In this document: positions 5,843 to 62,897 of the stretch, one piece after another | Layout of the letters: every line of letters starts with the position of its first letter | How positions within the stretch are numbered: the stretch's first letter is position 1 | NCBI RefSeq assembly: GCF_000754095.2 | Contig: NZ_JQSG02000006.1 | Location: 995,501-1,059,500, forward strand | Direction of reading: 5' to 3' | Length of the DNA: 64,000 bases | Source: Acidihalobacter prosperus | GTDB lineage: Bacteria > Pseudomonadota > Gammaproteobacteria > DSM-5130 > Acidihalobacteraceae | Notes under the pieces: generated by a model | The model's input: the letters and a program-made list of their open reading frames with translations, nothing else | Databases searched by the model: none | What the model was told of the DNA's origin: nothing | Program-made: the position numbers and the translations under genes

Positions 5843-5856
5843 TTGAGCGACATCAA
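5843..5856. promoter_or_regulatory. FNR/DNR-type box between hyp and hyd operons
   Basis: The sequence reads TTGAG-CGAC-ATCAA, one mismatch from the FNR/DNR consensus TTGAT-N4-ATCAA. A TATACC hexamer at 5879-5884 lies where the -10 of a class II FNR promoter should be if the box is centred at -41.5 (start near 5891, about 50 bases before the hydB start). The box could also serve hypC. A suitable regulator is encoded at 35009-35683. Binding is inferred. Confidence 0.6.
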
Positions 5857-5942
5857 ACCGAGCCAGCCCATCGCGTGCTATACCTTCACGGGTCGGCCCC
5901 GCGTGGAGCGCCGGCCAGGCGGAATCTCGGGGAGTGAGTATC

Positions 5943-34952: not shown

Positions 34953-34966
34953 TTGACCCAGATCAA
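34953..34966. promoter_or_regulatory. Orphan FNR/DNR-type box
   Basis: TTGAC-CCAG-ATCAA, one mismatch from consensus, lies in a 450-bp stretch (34558-35008) with no gene. On the minus strand it points toward the narI remnant; it may be what is left of a nar promoter. It sits 43 bases beyond the 3' end of the regulator gene. Confidence 0.5.
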
Positions 34967-35008: not shown

Positions 35009-35683
35009 TCAGGTGTGCAGGGTGGGGGCGGCCGCGAGCGTGCGCAGGCCGGGAATGTCGAGCAGGTGCACGCTGCGCGCGTGTACCTGCACCAGGCCAC
35101 GCCGTTGCAGTTCGCCGAGCAGGCGCGACAAGGTTTCCGGCTTGATCGCGAGATGGGCGGCGATCACGGTTTTCGACGCGGGCAGTTCGAGACTCCGATC
35201 GGATTGCGCCTGTGCCAGCAGGTAGGCGATCAGCCGGTAGTGTGCGCCTTCGAGCGTCTGCGCCTCGATTTCCGCCAACAGCCCCTGGATGCGACGCGTT
35301 TGCCGCCCGAGCAGCGCCAGACAGGCGACTGGGGATTCCAGCAGTAAGGAGCGGAAAACCGCGGCATCCACGGTCCACACCTCGCTGGCTTCGAGCGCCT
35401 CTGCGCCGACCGGATAGACGGGGTGCTCCATGAAGGCGACGCCTTCGGCGAAGGTGTCGCCCGGTGCGACGATATTCATCACCTTTTCGCCTCCCTGCCG
35501 GGAGAGCATGAACAGTTTGATATGCCCCGTGCGCAGCAGGAAGAAGGTGCGCGCCGGCGTGCCGGCATCGAACAAGGTCTCGCCGCGCGCGAGTTTTCGA
35601 CGTCCGATGTGGCGTGCCAGGCTGTCGAGCTGGTGTTGGTCCAGGCTGGCGAAAAGACCGATGTCCTGCAGGGTTTCGATCAT
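35009..35683 (-). CDS. dnr: Crp/Fnr regulator, Dnr-like
   Basis: A 224-aa Crp/Fnr-family regulator. The N-terminal cyclic-nucleotide-like domain spans about 1-125 and a C-terminal winged helix about 150-215. No N-terminal cysteine cluster is present, so it is not an FNR-type iron-sulfur oxygen sensor; DNR/NnrR proteins sense NO with heme. The recognition helix contains ETLSRLL, the E--SR pattern that reads TTGAT half-sites in FNR. FNR/DNR boxes flank it on both sides. The dnr name is by similarity and context. Confidence 0.8.
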   Translation of the reverse strand: MIETLQDIGLFASLDQHQLDSLARHIGRRKLARGETLFDAGTPARTFFLLRTGHIKLFMLSRQGGEKVMNIVAPGDTFAEGVAFMEHPVYPVGAEALEASEVWTVDAAVFRSLLLESPVACLALLGRQTRRIQGLLAEIEAQTLEGAHYRLIAYLLAQAQSDRSLELPASKTVIAAHLAIKPETLSRLLGELQRRGLVQVHARSVHLLDIPGLRTLAAAPTLHT

Positions 35684-35796: not shown

Positions 35797-35810
35797 TTGA
35801 CCTGGATCAA
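35797..35810. promoter_or_regulatory. FNR/DNR-type box in regulator/hemerythrin gap
   Basis: TTGAC-CTGG-ATCAA lies between the divergent dnr-like gene (start 35683) and the hemerythrin gene (start 35943). It could mediate autoregulation, hemerythrin activation, or both. Confidence 0.6.
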
Positions 35811-35942: not shown

Positions 35943-36482
35943 ATGTTGTTACCGACACCATCTGCCGGTTTTGAGGATCCTTTGGGTTTGCTCGCGGATT
36001 GCCACCGGCGCATGGAAATATTCTGTGGCCGGCTCGAGCTTATGCCGGCACACCTGGATACACACGGTTCCGATGAGACGGCACGCAGGGCGGCGGCCGG
36101 TATCGTGGCCTATTTCGAGCATGCCGCGCCCCTGCACCATGCCGACGAGGAGACAGATTTGCTGCCGATGATGTGTCGTCGCGCATGCGCCCCCAAGGCA
36201 CGGGCGGCGGTGGCGGCATGGAGCGTCCGCATCGATGAGGATCATCGCGCCCAGTCGGCTGCCTGGCACGGTGTGCGTGCCGCGCTGCAGGCATTGAGTC
36301 GCGGGGATGGCGTGCAGGCGCCGGATGCCGGAATGTTTGTCGACATGACACGGGCGCATTACCGCTTCGAGGACGAGACGGTATTGCCGCTGGCGCGAAC
36401 ACTGCTTACGGCACAAGACCTGACGGCGCTCGGACGCGCCATGGCGAGACGGCGCGAGCATGATTCTCGGGACGGGCCCTAG
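35943..36482 (+). CDS. Hemerythrin HHE-domain protein
   Basis: A 179-aa four-helix hemerythrin-like protein. Candidate iron ligands are in CHRRME, HHADEETDLLP, DEDHRAQ and HYRFEDETVLP, in the usual H, HxxxE, H, HxxxE order. Such proteins bind O2 or NO, or take part in repair of nitrosylated iron-sulfur clusters. The ATG follows a strong GAGGAGGAGGG. It is followed directly by another hemerythrin-containing gene and preceded by an FNR/DNR-type box. Confidence 0.85.
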   Translation: MLLPTPSAGFEDPLGLLADCHRRMEIFCGRLELMPAHLDTHGSDETARRAAAGIVAYFEHAAPLHHADEETDLLPMMCRRACAPKARAAVAAWSVRIDEDHRAQSAAWHGVRAALQALSRGDGVQAPDAGMFVDMTRAHYRFEDETVLPLARTLLTAQDLTALGRAMARRREHDSRDGP

Positions 36483-36483
36483 C

Positions 36484-37485
36484 ATGGAGACGCTGCGTGA
36501 GGAGAGGCCAGTCGTGCGCAAGCCGGCGATGCCGTTGCCGGCAAGTTACGTGCGGTTCAGCCGTACGCCGGTCTTTGACGGTGGACACATGCCGCCGGGG
36601 CTGTGCGAATCACATCATACGACGCATGGCGTGTGGGTCGAGATCGTGATCGAGCGCGGCGCGCTGGAATATCGTTGGCTGGATGGTTCGGGCAGATGCT
36701 GGCAGCTTGTTGCCGGCGAGATCGGCGTGATTCCGGCGGGTCTGCCGCATCGCGTGACGCCGGCCAGCGAAGACACACGTTTTTATCTGCGGCTGTACCG
36801 CAAGGACGTCGCGCCCGCATCGCAAGCCGATCGCGATCCGCCGCGTCAAACCCTGGATCTGCGCCGGCTGCCGATGCGTCTGCGCGATCGCGCCTTGTCC
36901 GACGTGTTCGACGTGCTGCTGTCAGGGCAGGCGCTCACCGTCGTCGACGACCGTGACCTGCGCGCACTATTCGAGCGCTTCGTGCCGCCGCGACGGCTGG
37001 CTTTGTTATGGTTGATGCAGGCGGATTCACCGGCGCGAAGGGTGGTCAGCGTGTGTCGCCGCGAAGCCCGGCATGCGGCGCGCATCGGAGAGGTGCTGCA
37101 GGCCGATCATGCCCGTCTCGACGCATTGCTCGATGCCGCCACAGCGCGTGCGGAGTCGGGAGAGGGGGGCGGCGACGCCCTCGGCGATCTGATCTGGGGT
37201 CTGCGCCGGCATATGGCCTTCGAAGAACAGCGCCTGTTTCCGCTGTTCGTGGCAAGCGGCGGGACAGCGGCGCCGACGCGGGTGATGCGGGACGAGCATG
37301 TCGACATCGAGAAGCGCTTGGGGCGGCTGGCGGGCGCTCCTGCGGATGTCGAAACGCTGGCCGGATTGCGCGACCAGCTCGAACGACACAATTTCAAGGA
37401 AGAGGGCGTCCTGTACCCTCTCATCGATGCGAATCTGGATGGACACCATGCCGCCTTGGTCGAGGCCTTCAGCGTCGGCGATTGA
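36484..37485 (+). CDS. YeaR-like cupin + DUF2249 + hemerythrin fusion
   Basis: A 333-aa protein with three fused units. Residues about 15-105 match the DUF1971/YeaR-TehB-like cupin (LPASYVRFSRTPVFDGGHMP then GVIPAGLPHRVTP). About 112-195 look like DUF2249 (LDLRRLPMRLRDRALSDVFD then VVDDRDLRALFERF). About 200-330 are a hemerythrin HHE domain (ADHARLDALLD, HMAFEEQRLFPL, DEHVDIEKRL, HNFKEEGVLYPL). YeaR is induced by nitrate and NO in E. coli, and DUF2249 and HHE proteins cluster with denitrification genes. Starts at 36460, 36484 and GTG 36514 are possible; 36514 has the best ribosome site (GAGGAG). Confidence 0.75.
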   Translation: METLREERPVVRKPAMPLPASYVRFSRTPVFDGGHMPPGLCESHHTTHGVWVEIVIERGALEYRWLDGSGRCWQLVAGEIGVIPAGLPHRVTPASEDTRFYLRLYRKDVAPASQADRDPPRQTLDLRRLPMRLRDRALSDVFDVLLSGQALTVVDDRDLRALFERFVPPRRLALLWLMQADSPARRVVSVCRREARHAARIGEVLQADHARLDALLDAATARAESGEGGGDALGDLIWGLRRHMAFEEQRLFPLFVASGGTAAPTRVMRDEHVDIEKRLGRLAGAPADVETLAGLRDQLERHNFKEEGVLYPLIDANLDGHHAALVEAFSVGD

Positions 37486-37529: not shown

Positions 37530-37543
37530 TTGATCGACATCAA
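37530..37543. promoter_or_regulatory. Perfect FNR/DNR box
   Basis: TTGAT-CGAC-ATCAA is an exact match to the FNR/DNR consensus. It lies 44 bases after the fusion gene and 155 before a small membrane-protein gene, so the latter is its probable target. Confidence 0.7.
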
Positions 37544-37698: not shown

Positions 37699-37920
37699 AT
37701 GACTGCAGCCCCGAACCACGGCCAGACGGAACACCCGACGGCATCGAGACAAGTTCGCGGTGCCGGCAACACGCAGGTTTTCGTGATCCTTGTCGCCGTC
37801 ATTGCGGCTATCGGCTATCTGACCAATGTGATCGATATGCCCGTGGCGCGGCACCTGGGAGAGTTGCGCGGTATCGGCAGTGCGATGCCGCTGCTCGGCG
37901 CGATCCTCGGTTACGTTTGA
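37699..37920 (+). CDS. Small membrane protein, unknown
   Basis: I do not recognise this 73-aa protein. A polar N-terminus of about 25 residues is followed by one clear transmembrane helix (VFVILVAVIAAIGYLTNVI) and a second short hydrophobic stretch (AMPLLGAILGYV). GGGAGGT lies 6 bases before the ATG, which makes expression likely. A perfect FNR/DNR box upstream ties it to low-oxygen or NO conditions. Confidence 0.7.
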   Translation: MTAAPNHGQTEHPTASRQVRGAGNTQVFVILVAVIAAIGYLTNVIDMPVARHLGELRGIGSAMPLLGAILGYV

Positions 37921-45826: not shown

Positions 45827-46213
45827 TCAGCCGCTATTCACCATCAGCGCATGGATCTTTTTGCGCAGCATGTCCAGGGTTTCCTTGCGCTGTGCCGGCG
45901 CCATGGCCTTCAGTTTCGTGCGAAAGGCTTCTTCGCGCTTGAGGGCAATCGGCGTCGGGTGTGTGGTGCCGCCGGCGATCATGCCGCAAACGCCCTGGGG
46001 CACCAGTATGAAGGCGTTGGGGTCTCGCGCCTTGGCATCGGTGCCGGCGCAGGAGCCGGTCGCGGTCTTGCAGGCATTTTTATGGGCGGCGTTCACGCCG
46101 AAGCATTTGACCATCTTGGGCGCGGCGGCATGCGCGGCGACTGGAGCGAGCAGCGGTGCAGCCGCCACCAGTGTGCCCAAGGCGAGGCGAACGGCGTGCT
46201 GCATGTCCTTCAT
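45827..46213 (-). CDS. Bufferin-like (DUF2282, BufA1-type) secreted protein
   Basis: A 128-aa protein with a Sec signal (about residues 1-29, ending VAAHAA) and a mature part with four cysteines: MVKCFGV, KNACKT, GSCAG and QGVCGM. This pattern, with [11 protein letters not shown], matches DUF2282 bufferin precursors, which bind copper after cysteine modification by DUF692 (BufB) and BufC enzymes. No such enzymes are nearby. A C-terminal tail of about 45 residues rich in Lys and Met ([13 protein letters not shown]) is longer than usual. Expression likely starts just right of it. Confidence 0.72.
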
Positions 46214-46373
46214 GGCATTTCCTCAGGGTTGGCGTGGATGAGCAGATAGACCGTTGCCCAGGTGTACAGTTCCGGTCTGTTGCCATCGCGTTGTCATCTG
46301 TCTGCACCATAATGACCCCGCCGTCGACGTGACTGGCCACTCGACGGTGGAAATTCGATACTTTCCTCCTTGC

Positions 46374-46408
46374 AAAACCCCGCACAGGGATGTGCGGGGT
46401 TTTTTTTT
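46374..46408. terminator. Bidirectional rho-independent terminator
   Basis: A perfect 13-bp stem (AAAACCCCGCACA / TGTGCGGGGTTTT) with a GGGA loop is followed on the plus strand by nine T residues and on the minus strand by four. It lies 9 bases beyond the metal exporter stop and separates that gene from the bufferin-like gene. Confidence 0.88.
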
Positions 46409-46416
46409 GCCTGCGC

Positions 46417-47391
46417 TCAGGCGTTGCAGGCCCGGCCGGGGCAACTCAGCACCTCGACGGTGACGTGCCCGAGTCCAGGCAGGCCGGCGAGCAGCGACTT
46501 GTAGTGCGTGGCCGGCCGTGGGGCATGGGTGACCACGGAGAGTATGCAGGCGTGGGTGCCGGGGCCAACGCGCCAGATGTGCAGATCCGACACCCGGTTG
46601 TCGGCATCGGCCTCGATGCGTTGCTGCACCCGGGTCTGCAGCGGGCGCGTGTCTTCTGCGTCGAGCAGCACCGCGCCGGCATCGCGCATCAAACCATAGG
46701 ACCAGCGCGCGATCAGGATCGAGCCGACGATGCCCATCAGCGGGTCCATCCACATCCAGCCGAAGTATTTGGCCGACAGCAGGGCCACGATCGCCAGCAA
46801 AGAAGTGATGGCGTCCGCGGCGACATGCAGATAGGCGGCACGGAGATTGTGGTCGTGCTGGCCGTCGTGATGTTCGTGATGTTCGTGATGCTCGTGATGC
46901 TCGTGGGCATGCCCATGAGCGTGATCATGATGGTCGTCGAGCACCAGCGCGCTGGCCAGATTGACCACGAAGCCGATCACGGCCACCCAGATGGCCTCGT
47001 TGAGCACCACGTCGACCGGGTTGAACAGGCGATCGACGGATTCGAGCACCATCAGCAGTGCGACGATGGCCAGGGTCACAGCGCTGGTGAATCCGGCCAG
47101 GGAGTTGACCTTGCCGGTGCCGAAGCTGAAGCGCGGGTTGTCGGCGTGGCGGCGCGCGAAGACATAGGCGAAGGCGGCAATGCCGAGCGCGGCGGCATGC
47201 GAACCCATGTGCCAGCCGTCGGCGGTCAGCGCCATCGAATGCGTGAGATAGCCTGCGATCAGCTCGACCACCATGGTGATCAGGGTGATCGCAATGACGG
47301 TATAGGTGCGGCGTTCGGATGCCTGCGAGCGAGGCAGGCCGAAGTTGTGTGGGTGCCGCATTGCCTGCAGCGTTTGCGCATGTGTGTGCAT
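46417..47391 (-). CDS. dmeF: CDF metal exporter, DmeF-like
   Basis: Cation diffusion facilitator (324 aa, six helices) exporting divalent metals, probably Co/Ni as in DmeF. The N-terminal HNFG motif is typical of that group. Transport-site residues are in ADGWHMGSHAAA (TM2) and HVAADAITS (TM5). The cytoplasmic loop between TM4 and TM5 is extremely His-rich (about 15 His within 30 residues near position 165-195). ATG 47391 gives MHTHAQ; the frame is open a little further upstream. Ni export would complement the nickel-using hydrogenase. Confidence 0.85.
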   Translation of the reverse strand: MHTHAQTLQAMRHPHNFGLPRSQASERRTYTVIAITLITMVVELIAGYLTHSMALTADGWHMGSHAAALGIAAFAYVFARRHADNPRFSFGTGKVNSLAGFTSAVTLAIVALLMVLESVDRLFNPVDVVLNEAIWVAVIGFVVNLASALVLDDHHDHAHGHAHEHHEHHEHHEHHDGQHDHNLRAAYLHVAADAITSLLAIVALLSAKYFGWMWMDPLMGIVGSILIARWSYGLMRDAGAVLLDAEDTRPLQTRVQQRIEADADNRVSDLHIWRVGPGTHACILSVVTHAPRPATHYKSLLAGLPGLGHVTVEVLSCPGRACNA

Positions 47392-47513
47392 GAGGGGCTC
47401 CGGGCGCGCGCCCAAGGGGTGGGCGATGGGCGAAACGCATCGATTATCCGGACGAATCGTGGCGCGTCAATCGGCCGCCGCGCGCCCTTCGCGATCAGTG
47501 CTCGGTGCCGGGG

Positions 47514-53027: not shown

Positions 53028-53131
53028 GCATAACGCCATAATGCCGGCGTGACGATGCGCCGATGGCCCCCTGAGTCGCGCTCGGCATGCACGTTTATCG
53101 TGGACCGGTTTTTCCTTGGAGGGGCTCTGGC

Positions 53132-53722
53132 ATGAAGCAAAATGGTCGCTTGCGCGTGATGCTGTTCGACAAGTCGGCAGGGCGCGCGGCCATCCTGGAG
53201 CAGGCGCTCAAAGATCAGGGTTGCGAGGTTGTGGCCCGCCTGGGCGATGGTGACGACGTCTTCCGACGGGTGCAGGAACTGCAGCCGGACGTTGTCTTCG
53301 TGGATATGGACATCCCCGACCGCGATACCCTCGAGTCCATGCGCCTGATCAATCGCGAAATTCCGCGCCCGGTGGTGATGTTCGCCAGCCAGAGCGACGG
53401 TGCGACTATCGAGGAAGCGGTGCGTGCCGGCGTCAGCGCGTACATCGTCGACGGCCTCAGCCCCAGCCGCCTCAAGCCGATCATGGAGGTGGCCATCGCC
53501 CGTTTTCGCGAGTTCCAGGCCCTGCGCAACGAGCTTGAGCTGACGCGCAACAAACTGGCCGATCGGCGAGATATCGACAAGGCCAAGGGGGTGCTGATGC
53601 GCCAGAAGGGTCTGTCCGAAGAGGATGCCTACGCCGCCCTGCGCAAGCTTGCCATGGACCGCAACCAGAAGCTCGGCGACGTCGCGCGGATGCTGCTCGC
53701 CGCCGCCGAATTGCTTGGCTGA
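53132..53722 (+). CDS. nasT: NasT-type ANTAR antiterminator
   Basis: A 196-aa RNA-binding response regulator. The receiver-like N-terminus (about 1-120) keeps an aspartate in VVFVDMDIPD; the C-terminal ANTAR domain (about 130-190) reads DRRDIDKAKGVLMRQKGLSE then AYAALRKLAM. In the NasS/NasT system NasT is held by NasS and, when nitrate binds NasS, is freed to prevent leader termination in nas transcripts. GGAGGGG precedes the ATG at 53132. Leader hairpins fitting this role lie directly downstream, and nasS is at 56039. Confidence 0.9.
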   Translation: MKQNGRLRVMLFDKSAGRAAILEQALKDQGCEVVARLGDGDDVFRRVQELQPDVVFVDMDIPDRDTLESMRLINREIPRPVVMFASQSDGATIEEAVRAGVSAYIVDGLSPSRLKPIMEVAIARFREFQALRNELELTRNKLADRRDIDKAKGVLMRQKGLSEEDAYAALRKLAMDRNQKLGDVARMLLAAAELLG

Positions 53723-53860
53723 ACGCACCACATCGGGGCGCGCATAGTGCGCGCAGCACCATTTTCGAGCTTATCCGGCGTTTCCACGGAGACGTCAATG
53801 CGGGCGAAAAACCGCCCTTGATCCCGTGGTATGGCCCTGTAAAGCGGTTTTTCCCGTCTC

Positions 53861-53876
53861 TGGTACGGGTATTGCT
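53861..53876 (+). promoter_or_regulatory. Sigma-54-type promoter for nitrate operon
   Basis: TGGTACG-GGTA-TTGCT matches TGGCACG-N4-TTGCW with one mismatch. GG (53862-53863) and GC (53874-53875) are 10 bases apart. The start predicted near 53887 is 11 bases before the first leader hairpin. A weak NtrC-like site (CGCACC-N5-GGGGCG) is at 53724-53740. No gene lies in 53723-54183. Confidence 0.75.
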
Positions 53877-53897
53877 TATCCCACCATCGAGCATGAT

Positions 53898-53944
53898 CGG
53901 GCCAATGAAGGGCCGCTTGCTTCCAAGAGTCAACGCGGACTCTT
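53898..53944 (+). ncRNA. ANTAR-type two-hairpin leader
   Basis: Two hairpins with six-base loops stand in tandem. P1 (53898-53915) has a CGGGCC/GGGCCG stem with one G-G mismatch and loop AATGAA. P2 (53925-53944) has a perfect 7-bp AAGAGTC/GACTCTT stem and loop AACGCG. Both loops have A at position 1 and G at position 4, the known ANTAR recognition pattern. An intrinsic terminator follows 12 bases later. Confidence 0.78.
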
Positions 53945-53956
53945 AAACCAAAGACA

Positions 53957-54004
53957 ACGGCGTCACCCTGATCGCAACTGCGGTCGTGGGCCGCCGTTTT
54001 TTTT
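53957..54004 (+). terminator. Leader intrinsic terminator (attenuator)
   Basis: ACGGCG-n3-CCC pairs with GGG-n1-CGCCGT around an inner GATCGC-AACT-GCGGTC hairpin, followed by eight T residues. It lies 180 bases before narK and would stop transcripts unless NasT binds the leader. Confidence 0.82.
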
Positions 54005-54183
54005 GTGCCGGGAAGACCGTTGGAGGCCGTGATGCGGGAGGCGGAAATGTATCGATGCGTGGCGCGAGGCTGGCGCCACCAGGCTGCCCGTCCGGTCAAC
54101 AGGTTGATCAGACATGGCCATCGCTCGGATGCCCCCTGGGACCAAGGCATGCGCCGAACCGACTTGAACGCTCTGGAGGATTG

Positions 54184-55506
54184 ATGAAAACGCACAAGGT
54201 GGAACAACTCGTCATCGCGACGGTGGGATTTTTCTGGTGTTTCCTGATGTGGTTCTCGACGGCGGCTTTCAGCCCGAGTATCGCGAACCACTATAACCTC
54301 AGCCTGGCCGCACTCGGACTGCTCGCCAGCTCGGCCATCTGGATGGCACCCATCGGCCGCATCATCGCCGGTTGGGCGGCGGACCGCTTCGGTGCGCCGC
54401 GCACCTTCGCCTTCATTCTGGCCGTCTGCGGACTCGTCTCGATCGCCTCGGCCTACACCACGGACTACGACATCCTGTTCATCGAGCGGGTGATCGTGGC
54501 CATCGCGGGCGTGTCCTTCGTGGTCGGCATCCAGCATGTGGCCCAGTGGTTCGAGCCGGGCGAAATCGGTACCGCCGAGGGCTTGTATGCCGGTACCGGC
54601 AACGTCGGCGCCGGCGTTGGCGCGCTGCTGCTGCCGCGTATCTTCGGGCTCGACTATCAGGCGGCCTTTTTGTGGCTGGGCGTGATCGCGCTGGTGATTG
54701 CGGCGTGGTATCTGCTGCGCGGCGAGGCCGCCAAGCATGACAAGGTGCGCGCCACCGCGCGCCAGTCCGCTGATCTGCGCGGCACGGTCTACGTCTGGAC
54801 CCGCTACATCGCCATTGCCCTGATGCTGGCCTACGCCATGTCCTTCGGCCTCGAAATCGCGATGAACGCCTGGTTGCCGGGTTACTTCACGCGCGGCTTC
54901 CACGAGGCGCTGCTGGCGCTGGGCTTCACGAGTATCGCCGGCGTGCAGATCGCGGCCGGCACCTTTGCGGCGGTGCAGTCCTTCACCGCATCGCTGTTCC
55001 GGCCATTTTCGGGGTTCATGTCCGACCTGTTCCAGCGCCGTGGCTGGACGCCGCTGCCGATGATCGCGCGCACGCTGCCCTATGCGCCGCGGCTGCACTG
55101 GCTGGCCATCTCGCTGCTGCTGATCACGTTGTCCATGGTGGCGCTGACGGTCGCAGGCCTGATGAATTCGCTGCCCCTGTCGGTGATGGTGCTGGTCGCC
55201 TTCGGCGTGTTCGTGAGCTTCGGTACCGGCGGTACCTTTGCACTCGTGCCGCTGCTGTTCCCGAATCGCCCCGGCGTCGCCGCGGGCTTCATCGGCGGCG
55301 TTTCGACCGCAGGCGGCATCGTCTACCCACTGGTATTCGCCCACACCGCGAATATCCACATGGGTTACCTCTATATCGCGCTGTTCATGTTCATCCCGTT
55401 CACCCTGTTCTACTTCTGGGCGGCGCGCTACGAGCATCACCCCGAGGATCACGGGATCGGCGACGGCCTGCTCGGCCGTCCGAAACCGGTGGCTGACAAG
55501 GCCTGA
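54184..55506 (+). CDS. narK: Nitrate/nitrite MFS transporter
   Basis: Inner-membrane major-facilitator transporter of the NarK/NasA group (440 aa, 12 helices). The nitrate-porter signatures are present as GNVGAGVGALLLP in the first half and a glycine-rich stretch in the second (FGTGGTFALVPLLFPNR then AGFIGGVSTAGG). The ATG follows GGAGGA by 3 bases. It stands behind the attenuated leader, before a 50-aa gene and nasS, so its job is nitrate uptake for assimilation. Confidence 0.9.
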   Translation: MKTHKVEQLVIATVGFFWCFLMWFSTAAFSPSIANHYNLSLAALGLLASSAIWMAPIGRIIAGWAADRFGAPRTFAFILAVCGLVSIASAYTTDYDILFIERVIVAIAGVSFVVGIQHVAQWFEPGEIGTAEGLYAGTGNVGAGVGALLLPRIFGLDYQAAFLWLGVIALVIAAWYLLRGEAAKHDKVRATARQSADLRGTVYVWTRYIAIALMLAYAMSFGLEIAMNAWLPGYFTRGFHEALLALGFTSIAGVQIAAGTFAAVQSFTASLFRPFSGFMSDLFQRRGWTPLPMIARTLPYAPRLHWLAISLLLITLSMVALTVAGLMNSLPLSVMVLVAFGVFVSFGTGGTFALVPLLFPNRPGVAAGFIGGVSTAGGIVYPLVFAHTANIHMGYLYIALFMFIPFTLFYFWAARYEHHPEDHGIGDGLLGRPKPVADKA

Positions 55507-55598
55507 GGCCGCGCGTGCCGGAGCGGGATCATGCTCCGGCGCGCCGCCACCTCCTTGCCGACAGCGAACCCATGCCTTCCATCGATTGGAGATCACTC

Positions 55599-55751
55599 AT
55601 GCAAAACAACGAACAGCAGACGCCACACGAACCTTGGTACAAATACGGCGTGGCCTTCATTTTCCTGGAAATGTTCATCGCCATCGCGGTCAGCGTGTAC
55701 TCGCTCTATATGGCCTTCAACGGTCTGGGCGGCTTCCCGGGCAAGCACTGA
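55599..55751 (+). CDS. Small membrane protein of the nitrate locus
   Basis: I do not recognise this 50-aa protein. It has a polar start (MQNNEQQTPHEPWYKYG), one transmembrane helix (VAFIFLEMFIAIAVSVYSLY) and a short glycine-rich end. GGAGA lies 6 bases before the ATG at 55599; an ATG at 55572 would add nine residues. It follows narK by 92 bases and may be an accessory subunit of the transporter. Confidence 0.65.
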   Translation: MQNNEQQTPHEPWYKYGVAFIFLEMFIAIAVSVYSLYMAFNGLGGFPGKH

Positions 55752-55754
55752 AGG

Positions 55755-55793
55755 AACAGCCGGGCGCCGGAATGGTGCCGACGCCCGGCTGTT
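55755..55793 (+). terminator. Strong hairpin after small gene
   Basis: A perfect 12-bp stem (AACAGCCGGGCG / CGCCCGGCTGTT) with a 15-base loop starts 3 bases after the small gene. No T-run follows; it may act as a rho-dependent terminator or as a 3' mRNA cap that separates narK from nasS expression. Confidence 0.5.
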
Positions 55794-55809
55794 GCACCAA
55801 ACAGGTGCG
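55793..55809. promoter_or_regulatory. NtrC-type enhancer site
   Basis: TGCACC-AAACA-GGTGCG matches the NtrC consensus TGCACC-N5-GGTGCA at 11 of 12 positions. It is centred about 86 bases upstream of the start predicted for the sigma-54-type promoter at 55861, a normal enhancer distance. Confidence 0.7.
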
Positions 55810-55860
55810 CGAATGGCGGGTGTGGGCGTGTGCAGCCCAGGCAAATGGATGTCGGGAGCT

Positions 55861-55877
55861 TGGCACGCGATGTGCTT
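55861..55877 (+). promoter_or_regulatory. Sigma-54-type promoter before nasS
   Basis: TGGCACG is a perfect -24 element; GG (55862-55863) and GC (55874-55875) are 10 bases apart and the -12 reads GTGCT. The predicted start is near 55887, upstream of a hexaloop hairpin and an intrinsic terminator. Confidence 0.7.
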
Positions 55878-55912
55878 GGCTCACACCGACAGCACGAAAA
55901 GACCGGGATGGC

Positions 55913-55926
55913 GCCCAATGGCGGGC
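55913..55926 (+). ncRNA. Candidate ANTAR hexaloop in nasS leader
   Basis: A GCCC/GGGC stem closes the loop AATGGC, with A at position 1 and G at position 4 as in the narK leader. A second hairpin (ACCGA-CCCGGA-TCGGT, 55928-55943) has G4 but not A1. Together they may form a weaker NasT target. Confidence 0.45.
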
Positions 55927-55963
55927 TACCGACCCGGATCGGTGAAATCGATCGAATTTCGAC

Positions 55964-56016
55964 AAAGGCGTCGTGACGTTCATGCGTGGCATGAAGCGGA
56001 GCGGCGCCTTTTTTTT
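55964..56016 (+). terminator. Intrinsic terminator in nasS leader
   Basis: AAAGGCG pairs with CGCCTTT around an inner perfect TTCATGC-GTG-GCATGAA hairpin, and eight T residues follow (56009-56016). It ends about 22 bases before the nasS ATG, so it should act as an attenuator for the nasS-nirBD-nasA-cysG transcript. Confidence 0.75.
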
Positions 56017-56038
56017 GGCCGGAATGGAGCGGTTTGGC

Positions 56039-57427
56039 ATGGTGGATAGCAGCGCAGGCGGACGTACCAGGCTGAGTCTCGGCAAGCGGCCGGGAGACGA
56101 GCTGGAACAGCGCGAGTTGACCCTGGGCTTCGTGCCGCTGACCGACTGCGCGCCGCTGGTGGTCGCGCGCGAATTGGGCCTGTTCGCCGACGAGCACCTG
56201 GACGTGACGCTGTCGCGCGAGCCTTCCTGGGCGAATATCCGCGACAAGGTCATGATGGGCGCGCTCGACGGCGCGCAGATGCTGGCGGGCATGCCGGTGG
56301 CGAGCCAGCTCGGCATCACCGCGGTCAGGCGTCCGTTGATCGCGGCCCTGAGCCTGGGGCTGTCGGGCAACGCGATCACGGTGTCGCGGCGTCTGTTCGC
56401 CCGCCTGCGCGAGCAGGACGAGGCGGCGCTGGCACGGCGCCCGTGCACGGCGGACAGTCTGTGCGCGCTGATCGATGCCGACCGCCAGGCCGGGCGGCCG
56501 CCGTTGACCTTTGCGGTGGTGTATCCCGTCTCCAGCCACAATTACGAGCTGCGTTACTGGCTTGCCGCCGCGGGGATCGATCCGGACCGCGACGTGCGGA
56601 TCGTGGTGATCCCGCCCCCGCAGATGGTGGCCCGCCTGCGGGCCGGCGAAATCGACGGTTTCTGCGTCGGCGAGCCCTGGAACAGCGTGGCGGTGCAGGG
56701 CGGGCATGGCCATATCCTGATGACCAGCGACCAGCTCTGGCGGCACAAGCCGGAAAAGGTGCTGGGCGTCACCCAGGAATGGGCGGAGCGTCATCCGCTC
56801 ACCCTGCGTGCACTGGTGCGCGCCCTGATGCGCGCCGGGCAGTGGCTGGACGATCCCGCGCATCGGGAGCAGGCGGCCCGGCTGCTGGCGCGTTCGGAAT
56901 ACATCGGCGTCAAGGAGGCGTCGCTCCGCCTGCCGTTGGGCGAGCAGTTGGTCTACGACCCCGGTACGCCAGCGGTGGCGCATCCGGATTTCAACGTTTT
57001 TCAGCGTCATGCCGCGATGTTCCCCTGGCGTTCGCACGCTCTGTGGTTCATCACCCAGCTCTATCGCTGGGGGCAGGTCGATACGGCGCACGACATGGCC
57101 GCCGTGGCCGCGGCCGCGTATCGCCCGGAGTATTACCGCGAGGCCGCCGAAGCCCTGGGCTGGACCTATCCCAGGATCGACTACAAGCCCGAGGGCCTGC
57201 ACGCAGGCGACTGGCAGCTCGCACAGGCGATGCCGGAGCCGCTGTCCATGGGCGCCGACGTCTTTTTCGACGGCGGGCGCTTCGACCCTCACGACCCCGT
57301 GGGGTACCTCGAGTCGTTCGCGGTCGCCGCGCCCAGGGTCACGCTGGAAACCCTTCGTCACATGAACCAATCGCGTCCGTCGTCTGCCGCCCATGCGCTC
57401 GGCAAGGCTGGCGACGGCACATCCTGA
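56039..57427 (+). CDS. nasS: NasS-type nitrate sensor
   Basis: A 462-aa protein of the NrtA/CmpA nitrate-binding family with no signal peptide or lipobox, as expected for the cytoplasmic sensor NasS, which sequesters NasT without nitrate. Family motifs are GFVPLTDCAPLVVARELGLF, GALDGAQMLAGMP and GFCVGEPWNS. Start is taken at ATG 56039; ATG 56024 is close by, and a longer GTG start at 55973 would run through the terminator hairpin. It lies 2.3 kb from nasT rather than next to it, and 16 bases before nirB. Confidence 0.88.
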   Translation: MVDSSAGGRTRLSLGKRPGDELEQRELTLGFVPLTDCAPLVVARELGLFADEHLDVTLSREPSWANIRDKVMMGALDGAQMLAGMPVASQLGITAVRRPLIAALSLGLSGNAITVSRRLFARLREQDEAALARRPCTADSLCALIDADRQAGRPPLTFAVVYPVSSHNYELRYWLAAAGIDPDRDVRIVVIPPPQMVARLRAGEIDGFCVGEPWNSVAVQGGHGHILMTSDQLWRHKPEKVLGVTQEWAERHPLTLRALVRALMRAGQWLDDPAHREQAARLLARSEYIGVKEASLRLPLGEQLVYDPGTPAVAHPDFNVFQRHAAMFPWRSHALWFITQLYRWGQVDTAHDMAAVAAAAYRPEYYREAAEALGWTYPRIDYKPEGLHAGDWQLAQAMPEPLSMGADVFFDGGRFDPHDPVGYLESFAVAAPRVTLETLRHMNQSRPSSAAHALGKAGDGTS

Positions 57428-57443
57428 TTTGGGAGATCACGCA

Positions 57444-59891
57444 ATGACTGGCAGGCAGAAACTGGTATTGGTGGGCAATGGCATGGCGGGGGTGCGGACC
57501 CTCGAGGAGCTGCTCAAGCTCGCGCCGGACATGTACGACATCACCGTGTTCGGCGACGAACCCTACGGCAATTACAATCGCATCATGCTGTCGCCGGTGC
57601 TGGCCGGCGAGAAAACGGTCGACGACATCATCCTCAACGACGACGCCTGGTATGCCGACAACGGCATTACTCTGCACAAGGGCAAGCGGGTGACGCGCAT
57701 CGATCGCGTGCGCCGCTGCGCGATCACCGACGACGGCACCGAGGCGCCCTATGACCGCCTGATCCTCGCGACGGGCTCCAAGCCCTTTATCATTCCGGTG
57801 CCCGGCCACGACAAGCAGGGTGTGATCGCCTTCCGCGACATCCACGACGTCGACACCATGCTGGCCTCCTCGCGCACGGGCCGTCGCGCGGTGGTGATCG
57901 GCGGCGGACTGCTCGGCCTCGAGGCCGCCAACGGCCTGATGAAGCAGGGCATGGAGGTCACGGTCGTGCACCTGCTCGGCACGCTCATGGAGCGCCAGCT
58001 CGATCAGGTCGCCGCGGATCTGCTGATGCGTTCGCTGCAGGAGCGCGGCATGCAGTTCCGCCTGCAGGCGCAGACCACCGAGGTGCTCGGTGACGATCGC
58101 GTCACCGGCGTGCGTTTCCAGGACGGCAGCGAGCTGCCGGCCGATCTCGTGGTGATGGCGGTGGGCATCCGGCCGAACATCGAGCTGGCGCAGCAGTCGG
58201 GGCTCTATTGCGAACGCGGCATCCTGGTCAACGACACTCTGCAGACCTTCGATCCGAGCATCTACGCGGTCGGCGAGTGCGTGCAGCATCGCGGCAGCGT
58301 TTATGGCCTGGTCGCGCCACTGTTCGAGCAGGCCAAGGTGTGCGCCAATCATCTGGCCGAATACGGCATCGCCAAGTACGGCGGTTCGATGACCTCGACC
58401 AAGCTCAAGGTCACCGGCATCGACCTGTTCTCCGCCGGCGATTTCAACGGCGACGAACACAGCGAGGAAATGGTGCTGCAGGACGCCGCGCGCGGCGTCT
58501 ACAAGAAGCTCGTGATCCGCGACAACCGCATCAAGGGTGCAGTGATGTATGGCGACACGCTCGACGGCGCCTGGTACTTCCAGCTGATGCGCGACGAAGC
58601 CGACATCACGGACCTGCGCGAGCACCTGCTGTTCGGCCAGGCCCATATCGGCGATGCCGGTCACGGCGACGAGGCCTCGCGGATCGCGGCGCTGCCCGAC
58701 AATGCCGAGATCTGCGGCTGCAACGGCGTCTGCAAGGGCGAGATCGTGCAGGCCATCACCAGCAAGAAGCTGTTCACCCTGGAAGACGTGCGGGCGCACA
58801 CCAAGGCGAGCAATTCCTGCGGCTCATGCACCGGTCTCGTGGAATCCCTGCTCGCCAACACGCTGGGCGGCGACTATTCGCAGACGCCGTCGAAAAAATC
58901 CCTTTGCCCCTGTACCGAACACACCCATGACGAGGTGCGAGAGGCCATCCGCACGCGCGAGCTCAAGACCCTGCCGGCGGTGTTCGAGGCCATGGAATGG
59001 TCGACTCCGGACGGCTGCCACGTCTGCCGTCCCGCGCTCAACTACTACCTGCTGATGAACTGGCCCGGTGAGTACGAGGACGACGGCCGCGCGCGCTTCA
59101 TCAACGAGCGCGTGCACGCCAACATCCAGAAGGACGGCACCTATTCGGTGGTGCCGCGCATCTGGGGCGGCGTGACCACGCCCGCCGAGCTGCGTGCCAT
59201 CGCCGAGGTGGCGGAAAAATACCAGGTGCCGACCGTCAAGATCACCGGCGGGCAGCGTATCGACCTGCTCGGTGTCAAGAAGGGTGACCTGCCGGCCATG
59301 TGGGGCGATCTGTCGCGCGCCGGCTTCGTTTCCGGCCATGCCTACGGCAAGGCCCTGCGTACGGTCAAGACCTGCGTCGGCTCCGAATGGTGCCGTTTCG
59401 GCACCCAGGATTCCACCGGGCTTGGCATCCAGCTCGAAAAACTGACCTGGGGTACCTGGACGCCGCACAAATTCAAGATCGGCGTGTCGGGCTGCCCGCG
59501 CAACTGCGCCGAGGCCACGATCAAGGATCTGGGCGTGGTGTGCGTGGATTCGGGTTACGAACTCCACGTCGGCGGCAACGGTGGCGTCAAGGTGCGGGCT
59601 ACGGATTTCCTGTGCAAGGTCGGCAGCGAGGCCGAGGTGCTCGAATACGCCGCCGCCTTCGTCCAGTACTACCGCGAGACCGCGCGCTATCTCGAGCGCA
59701 CCGCGCCCTGGATCGAACGCGTCGGCCTGAGCCTGGTGAAACAGAAGGTGGTCGAGGACGAGGTCGGCCGCAAGGCGCTGGCGAAGCGCTTCGCGGAGTC
59801 GCAGGCCTATGCGCAGCACGATCCCTGGCTGGAACGTGCCGAGGGCGCGGACGCCGGCGAATACCGCCCGCTCAACCGCATCAGCGCCTGA
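57444..59891 (+). CDS. nirB: NADH nitrite reductase large subunit
   Basis: NirB (815 aa) reduces nitrite to ammonium with NADH at a siroheme-[4Fe-4S] centre. The N-terminal flavin domain has LVGNGMAGVRTLEEL and VVIGGGLLGLEAANGL; a BFD-like [2Fe-2S] domain (about 425-480) has ICGCNGVC and CGSCTG; the siroheme domain has TCVGSEWCRFG and SGCPRNCAEA. All cluster cysteines are present. GGGAG precedes the ATG at 57444. It is cytoplasmic and followed by nirD. Confidence 0.95.
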   Translation: MTGRQKLVLVGNGMAGVRTLEELLKLAPDMYDITVFGDEPYGNYNRIMLSPVLAGEKTVDDIILNDDAWYADNGITLHKGKRVTRIDRVRRCAITDDGTEAPYDRLILATGSKPFIIPVPGHDKQGVIAFRDIHDVDTMLASSRTGRRAVVIGGGLLGLEAANGLMKQGMEVTVVHLLGTLMERQLDQVAADLLMRSLQERGMQFRLQAQTTEVLGDDRVTGVRFQDGSELPADLVVMAVGIRPNIELAQQSGLYCERGILVNDTLQTFDPSIYAVGECVQHRGSVYGLVAPLFEQAKVCANHLAEYGIAKYGGSMTSTKLKVTGIDLFSAGDFNGDEHSEEMVLQDAARGVYKKLVIRDNRIKGAVMYGDTLDGAWYFQLMRDEADITDLREHLLFGQAHIGDAGHGDEASRIAALPDNAEICGCNGVCKGEIVQAITSKKLFTLEDVRAHTKASNSCGSCTGLVESLLANTLGGDYSQTPSKKSLCPCTEHTHDEVREAIRTRELKTLPAVFEAMEWSTPDGCHVCRPALNYYLLMNWPGEYEDDGRARFINERVHANIQKDGTYSVVPRIWGGVTTPAELRAIAEVAEKYQVPTVKITGGQRIDLLGVKKGDLPAMWGDLSRAGFVSGHAYGKALRTVKTCVGSEWCRFGTQDSTGLGIQLEKLTWGTWTPHKFKIGVSGCPRNCAEATIKDLGVVCVDSGYELHVGGNGGVKVRATDFLCKVGSEAEVLEYAAAFVQYYRETARYLERTAPWIERVGLSLVKQKVVEDEVGRKALAKRFAESQAYAQHDPWLERAEGADAGEYRPLNRISA

Positions 59892-59920
59892 CGGCCGCCT
59901 CACAACGACGGAGTGAACCG

Positions 59921-60256
59921 ATGAAACAATGGATCGACATCGCCGCGCTGTCCGACGTCCCGCGCCTGGGTGCGCGGGTCGTGGCCCACGGCGAAGATGA
60001 AATCGCGGTATTCCGGGCCGCCGACGACGCGGTATTCGCGCTGCATAACCGCTGCCCGCACCGCAACGGGCCGTTGTCCGAGGGCATCGTGCACGGCCAT
60101 CGCGTGACCTGCCCGCTGCACAACTGGGTGATCGAACTCGATCGCGGCGAGGCCGTGGCGCCGGACAGCGGCAGCACGGCCTGCTATCCCGTGCGCGTGG
60201 AGAACGGGCGCATTCTGCTGGAGCTGGAAACCGCCGCGGAAGCCGCCCATGGCTGA
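59921..60256 (+). CDS. nirD: Nitrite reductase small subunit
   Basis: NirD (111 aa) is the Rieske-like small subunit of the NADH nitrite reductase. Here the [2Fe-2S] ligand pattern looks complete, CPHRNGPLSEG and CPLHNWVI, so a cluster may be bound, unlike E. coli NirD, which lacks it. The ATG follows nirB by 29 bases and the last 8 bases overlap nasA. Confidence 0.92.
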   Translation: MKQWIDIAALSDVPRLGARVVAHGEDEIAVFRAADDAVFALHNRCPHRNGPLSEGIVHGHRVTCPLHNWVIELDRGEAVAPDSGSTACYPVRVENGRILLELETAAEAAHG

Positions 60257-62897
60257 GGCGATCGCCACCGTCTGTCCCTATTGCGGCGTGGGCTGTGGCC
60301 TCAAGGTGCGTCCCGGGGTCACGGTGGAGGTGAAGCCGGACCCCACGCATCCGGCCAACCTCGGCCGTGTGTGCTCCAAGGGGGCCGCCCTCGGCGAGAC
60401 CCTGGGCGAATCTGACCGCCTGCTGCAGCCGGAGATCGGCGGCGTGCCGGTCGCCTGGGACGCGGCGCTGGACGAGGTCGCCTGCCGCCTGCGCAGCGTC
60501 ATCGACGCGCACGGTCCGCAGGCGGTGGCGTTCTATGTCTCGGGCCAGCTGCTCACCGAAGACTATTACGTCGTCAACAAGCTGATGAAGGGCTGCCTCG
60601 GCGCGGCCAACATCGACACCAACTCGCGGCTGTGCATGTCTTCCGCCGTCGCTGCCTACAAGCGCGCGCTGGGCGAGGACGCGGTGCCCTGCAGCTATCG
60701 GGACATCGAGGAGGCCGACCTGCTGGTGCTGGCCGGCTCCAACGCGGCCTGGACCCATCCCGTGCTGTACCAGCGCATCGTGGCCGAGAAGCAGCGTCGG
60801 CCCGCGCTGCGCGTGGTGGTCGTCGATCCGCGGCGCACGGCCACCTGCGACATCGCCGACCTGCATCTGGCCTTGCGTCCGGGTACCGACGCTTGGCTGT
60901 TCAATGGTCTGCTCAGTTACCTCGCGCGCGAAGGCGGGCTCGACCAGGGTTTCGTCGAGACCCATACGCAGGGCTTCGAGGCTGCGCTGGAGGCCGCGCG
61001 CGGGGCCGCGCCCTCGATTCCCGCGGTGGCCGCGGCCTGCGAGTTGCCGGCCGCGCAGGTGGCCGAATTCTTCCGTCTGTTCCTGCGCACCGAAAAAACC
61101 GTGACCCTATGGTCGCAGGGACTCAACCAATCCAGCAGCGGCGTCGATAAGGGGGCCGCGCTGATCAACTGCCATCTGGCCACCGGCCGAATCGGGCGCC
61201 CTGGCATGGGGCCGTTCTCGCTCACCGGCCAGCCCAATGCGATGGGCGGACGCGAGGTGGGCGGACTGGCCAACCAGCTCGCCGCGCACATGGACATCGA
61301 GGACGACGAGGCGCGCGAACGCGTGGCGCGGTTCTGGGGCGTGCCCACGGTGGCGGATACGCCGGGGCTCAAAGCCGTCGATCTGTTCGAGGCCGTGGCC
61401 GACGGGCGCGTCAAGGCGGTTTGGATCATGGCCACCAATCCGGTGGTGAGCATGCCCGACGCGGACCGCGTGCGTGCCGCGCTGCAGGCTTGCGAGCACG
61501 TCATCGTCAGCGATTGCGTGCGCGGCAGCGACACGGTCGCCTGTGCCGACGTGCTGCTGCCGGCCGCCACCTGGGGCGAGAAGGACGGGACGGTGACCAA
61601 TTCCGAACGTCGCATCTCGCGCATGCGCGCCTTCATGCCGCCGCCCGGCGATGCGCGGCCGGACTGGTGGATCGTGACCGAGGTCGCGCGGCGGATGGGT
61701 TACGGCGACGTCTTTCCCTATCGCTCGCCGGCGGACATTTTCCGCGAACATGCGGCACTTTCGGGCTTCGAGAACGAAGGCCGGCGCGTGTTCGATATCG
61801 GAGCGCTCAAGGACATCGACGACGCACACTACGACGTGCTGGCGCCGTTGCAGTGGCCGGTCAACGCGGCGCACCCGCAGGGGGGCGCAAGACTGTTCGC
61901 CGATGGCTGCTTCCCTACCGCGGACGGCCGTGCGCGGCTGATGCCGGTGACGCCGCGCGCACCAGTGGTGGTTGCCGGCGACGAGTACCCGCTGGTGATG
62001 AACACGGGACGCATCCGCGACCAATGGCACACCATGACGCGCACCGCGCGCACGCCGAGGCTGACAACGCACCTGCCCGAACCCTTCGTGCAGATCCATC
62101 CGCTGGATGCCGATCTGTGGCATCTGAGCGACGGCGCGCTGGCGCAGGTGACAAGCCCGCAGGGTTCCCTGCTGGCGCGTGTCCGGCTGGATGCCGCGCA
62201 GCGTCCGGGTGCGGTCTTTGTGCCGATGCATTGGAACGAGGCCTATGCCCGCAACGCGCGCGCCAATGCCCTGACCGCGGCGATCACCGATCCGATTTCG
62301 GGGCAGCCCGAATTCAAGCATGCGCCGGTGCGCGTGGCACCGTTCCGCCCGGTCTGGGAAGGCTTCCTGTTGACCCGCGAGCCCCTGTCGGCGCCGTTGG
62401 GCGATTACCGGGTACACATCCCCAGCCGGGGATTTCACCGTTACGAGCTGGCCGGCGAATCCTCGCCCGGCGACTGGGGGCAGTGGGTGCAGGCGCACCT
62501 GCTCGGCCCCGGCGAGTGGATGGAATACGCCGATCCGGCGGCCGGGCGCTATCGCTGCGCCCGCCTGCGCGACGGCCGCCTGGAGCTGGTGTTCTTCGTG
62601 GCCCCGGCCGGGCTGCCGGAACGCAGCTGGCTGGGGCAGATGTTCGCCGAGGACTTTCTCGACGACATGGCACGCATGAGCCTGCTCGCCGGACGTCCGG
62701 TGACCGGCATGCGCGTCGTCGGGCGGCAGGTGTGCGCCTGCTTCAACGTCGGGCTCAATACCCTGGTGGAGGCCATCGGCGAACAGGGCCTGACCAGCGT
62801 GGAGGCCATCGGTGCGGCGCTGCAGGCCGGCACCAACTGCGGCTCTTGCGTGCCGGAGCTGCGCGAGATTCTGGCCCAGGCGCGGCGCAGCGCCTGA
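60249..62897 (+). CDS. nasA: Assimilatory nitrate reductase catalytic subunit
   Basis: Cytoplasmic molybdopterin nitrate reductase (882 aa) that reduces nitrate to nitrite for NirBD. The N-terminal [4Fe-4S] site is CPYCGVGCGLKV plus VCSKG; SRLCMSSAVAAYK contains the expected Mo region. The C-terminal third includes MNTGRIRDQWHTMTRT, and the end carries a BFD-like [2Fe-2S] domain (CACFNVG and NCGSCVPE, about 830-870), as in NasA of Klebsiella. There is no Tat signal. Start overlaps nirD by 8 bases. Confidence 0.95.
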   Translation: MAEAIATVCPYCGVGCGLKVRPGVTVEVKPDPTHPANLGRVCSKGAALGETLGESDRLLQPEIGGVPVAWDAALDEVACRLRSVIDAHGPQAVAFYVSGQLLTEDYYVVNKLMKGCLGAANIDTNSRLCMSSAVAAYKRALGEDAVPCSYRDIEEADLLVLAGSNAAWTHPVLYQRIVAEKQRRPALRVVVVDPRRTATCDIADLHLALRPGTDAWLFNGLLSYLAREGGLDQGFVETHTQGFEAALEAARGAAPSIPAVAAACELPAAQVAEFFRLFLRTEKTVTLWSQGLNQSSSGVDKGAALINCHLATGRIGRPGMGPFSLTGQPNAMGGREVGGLANQLAAHMDIEDDEARERVARFWGVPTVADTPGLKAVDLFEAVADGRVKAVWIMATNPVVSMPDADRVRAALQACEHVIVSDCVRGSDTVACADVLLPAATWGEKDGTVTNSERRISRMRAFMPPPGDARPDWWIVTEVARRMGYGDVFPYRSPADIFREHAALSGFENEGRRVFDIGALKDIDDAHYDVLAPLQWPVNAAHPQGGARLFADGCFPTADGRARLMPVTPRAPVVVAGDEYPLVMNTGRIRDQWHTMTRTARTPRLTTHLPEPFVQIHPLDADLWHLSDGALAQVTSPQGSLLARVRLDAAQRPGAVFVPMHWNEAYARNARANALTAAITDPISGQPEFKHAPVRVAPFRPVWEGFLLTREPLSAPLGDYRVHIPSRGFHRYELAGESSPGDWGQWVQAHLLGPGEWMEYADPAAGRYRCARLRDGRLELVFFVAPAGLPERSWLGQMFAEDFLDDMARMSLLAGRPVTGMRVVGRQVCACFNVGLNTLVEAIGEQGLTSVEAIGAALQAGTNCGSCVPELREILAQARRSA

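Follow-up and report, generated by a model that had tools for sequence, protein, structure and literature searches.

Clusters of denitrification genes contain DUF2249 domains in organisms ranging from archaea to Thermus, and to our knowledge neither DUF2249 nor the YeaR/DUF1971 cupin has a known biochemical function. Among described di-iron proteins, those of the YtfE/ScdA/RIC group are regulated in connection with NO and nitrate and place an N-terminal ScdA_N domain before a hemerythrin fold, with electrons reaching the YtfE di-iron site through the ScdA_N di-cysteine (PMC9052748). The YtfE ligands are H84, H204, H129, H160 and the bridging residues E133 and E208, and E125 forms part of an iron channel (PMC9268430). 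YtfE generates NO as a nitrite reductase (PMC9052748), and reduction of nitrite to NO has been shown for both YtfE and ScdA (PMC9052748; PMC12412097). E. coli YeaR is a stand-alone cupin without a di-iron domain; NsrR controls its gene, which ranks with the most nitrate-induced genes of E. coli CFT073, and nitrate/NO strongly induces both ytfE and yeaR in E. coli (PMC5320621). TehB carries a related cupin fold at its N-terminus, followed by a methyltransferase and no di-iron domain. DUF2249 proteins have been tied to denitrification and nitrate sensing (PMC11218638, PMC6282519), including DrpA and DrpB of Thermus, which contain neither hemerythrin nor cupin, belong to a Dnr-controlled nitrate respiration cluster, and are periplasmic (DrpA) and membrane-associated (DrpB) (PMC6282519). 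Two-domain DUF2249-hemerythrin proteins are already in print from InterPro counts (PMC6282519).

We analysed a 64,000-nucleotide stretch of the Acidihalobacter prosperus genome (the window; host genome G000) in which all three of these modules lie in one reading frame. A preliminary description had reported this three-domain fusion, and its frame, coordinates and length of 333 residues are right:

36484-37485, plus strand: fusion ORF, 333 aa plus stop, with cupin DUF1971, DUF2249 and hemerythrin in that order
36562-36789, plus strand: DUF1971/YeaR-type cupin domain, residues 27-102 (Pfam and Foldseek)
36847-37059, plus strand: DUF2249 domain, residues 122-192 (Pfam in the ortholog and a domain model)
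37090-37425, plus strand: hemerythrin (HHE) domain, residues 203-314 (Pfam and six ligand residues)

An ortholog in a congener (G001) is 56% identical over its full length with the same domain order, and because this ortholog is open throughout, the ORF is protein-coding. By domain, the two proteins are closest in the cupin (76% identity), followed by the hemerythrin domain (61%) and DUF2249 (49%). Profile searches along the protein, proposed in the preliminary description, placed DUF1971 (PF09313, 53.2 bits against a cut-off of 23.1, model positions 2-80 of 80) and hemerythrin (PF01814, 71.7 bits against 25.3, residues 203-314) above their Pfam cut-offs, while DUF2249 (PF10006) fell below its cut-off of 29.5 in the window protein (22.5 bits, residues 123-166, model positions 1-44 of 70) and above it in the G001 ortholog (39.5 bits, model positions 2-66 of 70). 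The DUF2249 region also aligns with stand-alone DUF2249 proteins, and an AF2 model of the domain reaches a pLDDT of 93.8 with the complete beta-alpha-beta-alpha-beta-beta order. The DUF2249 assignment is sound despite its sub-threshold score because of the ortholog score, the stand-alone alignment and the domain model, and the ortholog score and domain model dispose of a half domain or a Pfam over-call. In Foldseek the DUF2249 model weakly resembles TusA/SirA-type folds, with no match at E <= 0.001; a sulfur-carrier role for this TusA-like fold is unsupported, as the orthologs share no cysteine in the DUF2249 domain. The cupin is matched best by E. coli YeaR (3bb6, E 1.5e-8, TM 0.83 by target length) and next by the TehB N-terminal domain (3dl3). 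The full-length AF2 model (pLDDT 89.5, pTM 0.73) shows three domains and, at residues 110-117, a flexible linker, and a chance ORF or mis-called fusion is excluded by this confident model together with the ortholog and its shared domain order.

Comparison with YtfE, the top sequence match for the hemerythrin profile among solved structures, reveals a complete set of six YtfE-type di-iron ligands. By alignment, fusion residues H209, H243, E247, H272, H302 and E306 correspond to YtfE H84, H129, E133, H160, H204 and E208, and E271 corresponds to the second-sphere residue E159; the six ligand positions and E271 are conserved in all hemerythrin sequences aligned. The likeness ends at the N-terminus, where the fusion carries the cupin and DUF2249 in place of ScdA_N, a domain that Pfam does not find in the protein, and at the iron channel, where G239 occupies the position of YtfE E125. 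No cysteine is conserved in an alignment of the fusion with its close G001 ortholog, and YtfE's electron route is therefore absent. Scores against the RIC models are far below cut-off (25.3 against 204.7 bits for TIGR03652 and 34.3 against 254 bits for NF008221), and with no ScdA_N, no vicinal di-cysteine and no E125 we rejected membership of the RIC/YtfE family. Two-domain DUF2249-hemerythrin proteins are co-linear with the C-terminal two-thirds of the fusion but lack the cupin. Within the cupin, H44 is invariant in alignments that include stand-alone DUF1971 proteins, and H89 is conserved in close orthologs, stand-alone relatives and a DUF1971-hemerythrin fusion described below (G313) but lost in two other fusions (G263 and G023). 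Being the most constant part of the protein, the di-iron site would be the likeliest place of its chemistry.

The neighborhood of the gene would suit a nitrate- or NO-responsive unit. The preliminary description had placed a second hemerythrin, a Dnr-like regulator and FNR/DNR boxes beside the fusion, and all three were recovered:

35943-36482, plus strand: single-domain hemerythrin upstream of the fusion (Pfam, 40.2 bits)
35009-35683, minus strand: Dnr-type CRP/FNR regulator (dnr), divergent from the hemerythrin-fusion operon (cNMP_binding and HTH_Crp_2)
35797-35810, no strand: FNR/DNR box TTGACCTGGATCAA in the divergent promoter (motif scan)
34953-34966, no strand: FNR/DNR box TTGACCCAGATCAA downstream of dnr (corresponding box in G001)
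37530-37543, no strand: perfect FNR/DNR box TTGATCGACATCAA, following the fusion and preceding the small membrane ORF
37699-37920, plus strand: small putative membrane protein, 73 aa (no Pfam family; ortholog in G002)
53087-62897: nitrate assimilation cluster with an ANTAR response regulator, an MFS transporter, an NMT1-like protein, and NirB-type and NasA-type reductases

The regulator's top solved match is the DNR protein 3dkw (E 3.7e-30), and no N-terminal cysteine cluster is found on reading its sequence. Sites of the form TTGAT-N4-ATCAA with at most one mismatch number 3 in 2.8 kb against 0.023 expected from dinucleotide shuffles, and at least three boxes were reached in 0 of 1000 such shuffles. 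Both sequence marks of a DNR regulon, a regulator of DNR type and promoter boxes of the TTGAT-N4-ATCAA form, are thus present, and the divergent promoter also carries boxes in the congeners G001 and G002; in the sister genus (G004) the globin-dnr intergenic stretch is without a box and the sole nearby site lies inside the globin gene. A single base separates the hemerythrin stop from the fusion start both in the window (TAG-C-ATG) and in G001 (TGA-T-ATG), and these junctions suggest that the two genes are translationally coupled. The 73-residue putative protein has a single predicted membrane span and the perfect box upstream; its ortholog in G002 (L138:1238-1456) is likewise preceded by a box (L138:1673), and it possibly belongs to the same regulon as the fusion. 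Elsewhere in the window, a DNR-like box TTGAGCGACATCAA lies at 5843-5856 between small genes near 5.5-5.8 kb and a gene at 5934.

Relatives of the host show how this locus may have been assembled. The G001 operon runs truncated globin (trHb), hemerythrin, fusion, divergent from dnr, and dnr has as neighbors a narK-type transporter gene and narG, which encodes the respiratory nitrate reductase. A second congener, G002, keeps the order MOSC, dnr, hemerythrin and small membrane ORF without the fusion; IS21-type istA/istB genes occupy its expected place (L138:5224-7651), and profile search found DUF1971 nowhere in the G002 genome. The fusion is dispensable, since this congener lacks it and has an IS21-type element at the site. 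The upstream hemerythrin has an ortholog in each of the five family genomes and in G004, as in G001, is preceded by a truncated globin that heads the operon; because of this distribution the dnr-globin-hemerythrin unit appears to be older, with the fusion added later. All five family genomes also hold a second unit, in which a DUF2249-hemerythrin gene adjoins and is convergent with a truncated globin gene (C3:249043-250125, locus L057, in the host, with equivalents in G001-G004). Glycine-cleavage-H-like genes of lipoyl-carrier type stand beside hemerythrin/Dnr genes in three genomes (L137:9769-10215, L139:12767-13213, L093:7804-8256).

We surveyed several hundred genomes of the class and phylum, a sample from one phylum, as the preliminary description had proposed. 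Within it the three-domain fusion is rare, occurring only in the host, in G001 and, diverged, in G263, a genome of another family. The G263 homolog is co-linear at 27% identity over residues 15-326 (hhalign probability 98.4), and we therefore rejected the notion that the fusion is confined to one genus. Its DUF1971 and hemerythrin domains both exceed their Pfam cut-offs, inspection by eye finds all six iron ligands kept, and its middle part gives a weak DUF2249 signal (the best domain scores 12.8 bits, where none of 200 shuffles exceeds 5.6). This gene lies downstream of NnrS, FmdE-like, Rieske and stand-alone DUF2249 genes, with a DNR-like box immediately 5′ of NnrS.

Other fusions join the same parts differently. 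In G313 a DUF1971-hemerythrin fusion stands in a gene row with a stand-alone DUF2249 protein and a FeS_assembly_P (SufT-like) protein; the divergent Rrf2 regulator falls short of both the NsrR and the RirA cut-off, at 128.7 and 140.4 bits respectively. G023 has the reverse order, hemerythrin-DUF1971, with a DNR box in front and a COX1-like gene divergent from the operon, and the hemerythrin of this fusion is closely related to the upstream hemerythrin of the window. Overall, DUF1971 has an in-frame hemerythrin at 4 of the 53 DUF1971 loci scanned, some genomes being counted more than once. Searches of the G313 and G023 families revealed no second copies of their fusion types, plasmid searches returned single-domain matches only, and genome-contig searches gave no useful match with the single fusion sequence and hemerythrin-domain relatives only with a two-sequence alignment. 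In a phylogenetic tree the fusion's hemerythrin domain occupies a long branch apart from both DUF2249-hemerythrin groups, so the domain is no recent duplicate of the DUF2249-hemerythrin paralog in the host; an origin from that paralog is unsupported by this long-branched tree.

These arrangements bear on what the preliminary description had concluded. Its view that the three domains normally occur as separate proteins holds as a statement of what is usual, but is too broad for DUF2249 and hemerythrin, whose fusions are common in the phylum and in print (PMC6282519). Its proposal that the parts work together gains from the fusions of several genomes, which differ in domain order, and from the two operons with stand-alone DUF2249; the same parts joined in different orders are a stronger sign of shared function than any single fusion. 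In unrelated genomes DUF1971, DUF2249 and hemerythrin are recurrently linked with narG/narK, NnrS, an Rrf2/NsrR-like repressor and DNR boxes. Because DNR boxes and regulator, narK-narG, NnrS and the Rrf2/NsrR-like repressor recur across several genomes, the gene-context linkage of the fusion to the nitrate/NO response is strong.

We favor, at a probability of roughly 0.55, a reading in which the fusion belongs to the nitrate/NO stress response as a di-iron protein, probably cytoplasmic and under DNR control, that would bind or turn over NO or nitrite, with the cupin and DUF2249 as accessory domains. Chemistry on NO or nitrite is favored because of the similarity to the nitrite-reducing YtfE and ScdA. 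The hemerythrin domain would work like YtfE at its di-iron site, ScdA_N would be replaced by the cupin and DUF2249 for ligand sensing, substrate positioning or partner docking, and the adjacent hemerythrin, together with the operon-heading truncated globin in G001 and G004, may share the NO/O2 load. Several observations count against this explanation: the lack of a shared cysteine, the loss of H89 in G263 and G023, the RIC scores below cut-off, the dispensability of the fusion in G002, and the host's own gene content. Genome profile searches of the host gave no narG, nirS or hcp match, and the nearest nitrogen genes form the assimilatory nitrate/nitrite reductase cluster at 53-63 kb of the window; NO or nitrite, if it is the substrate, would therefore have to come from nitrate assimilation or from outside. 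Between the fusion and that cluster, a DUF2282 protein is encoded near a cation efflux transporter gene (45827-47415).

The main rival to NO/nitrite di-iron chemistry, which we regard as unlikely, is a sensor or regulator in which the cupin and DUF2249 sense nitrate, nitrite or NO, the di-iron site senses redox state or O2, and the protein modulates Dnr or an enzyme without catalysis, like DrpA and DrpB. Those DUF2249 proteins are nitrate-responsive regulators of nar (PMC6282519), the fusion gene is divergent from dnr, and three small modules in one chain with no clear electron-delivery module would suit such a role. Yet the di-iron ligand set is complete and of YtfE type, Pfam finds no DNA-binding, kinase or cyclic-di-GMP output domain in the fusion, and DrpA is reported as periplasmic (PMC6282519). 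The recurrent partners also weigh on a different proposal, that the protein is an O2-binding hemerythrin buffering or delivering O2 in microaerobiosis with the cupin and DUF2249 as passive passengers: they are NnrS, narG/narK, the Rrf2/NsrR-like repressor and DNR-type regulators, not oxidases, and the supposed passengers recur in several independent arrangements. We consider O2 binding in this sense quite improbable, even with the COX1-like gene divergent from the G023 operon and with O2-responsive FNR also reading DNR/FNR-type boxes.

The preliminary description had named both NO handling and nitrosylation repair, and of these repair appears the weaker reading, with neither ScdA_N and its di-cysteine nor the E125 gate present in the sequence. 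Strict RIC-type repair, in which iron is donated to damaged Fe-S clusters, could draw on the conserved di-iron ligands with the E159 equivalent and on the FeS_assembly_P (SufT-like) gene within the G313 operon. It is set against the missing N-terminal domain and cysteines, the glycine G239 in place of the iron-channel residue (PMC9268430), the 25.3 bits scored where the RIC model demands 204.7, and the dispute over iron donation by YtfE itself (PMC9052748), and we hold it to be highly improbable.

The preliminary description knew of no protein with this architecture, and we too found none in the literature searched, which took in only a minor part of the subscription titles; the fusion is apparently rare and undescribed so far. 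In that literature one paper mentions DUF1971 and two mention DUF2249. Within the same range of literature, we found neither the cupin addition nor DUF1971/hemerythrin fusions in general, and as far as searched the new element is the cupin joined to an already known DUF2249-hemerythrin pairing. As a tentative proposal, to which we give less than even odds, the fusion may be the founding example of a separate DNR/NsrR-controlled di-iron class in which a YeaR-type cupin and DUF2249 act on a YtfE-like site. A natural protein that joins both modules to a complete di-iron site, along with the independent fusions in other arrangements, indicates that the parts act in one process, and one protein is now available in which the joint action of DUF1971, DUF2249 and the di-iron site can be measured. 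If the proposal is true, a single NO/nitrite device would be made up of YeaR, DUF2249 and hemerythrin, three parts that are unjoined in most bacteria, and the fusion would offer the first way into the function of DUF1971 and DUF2249.
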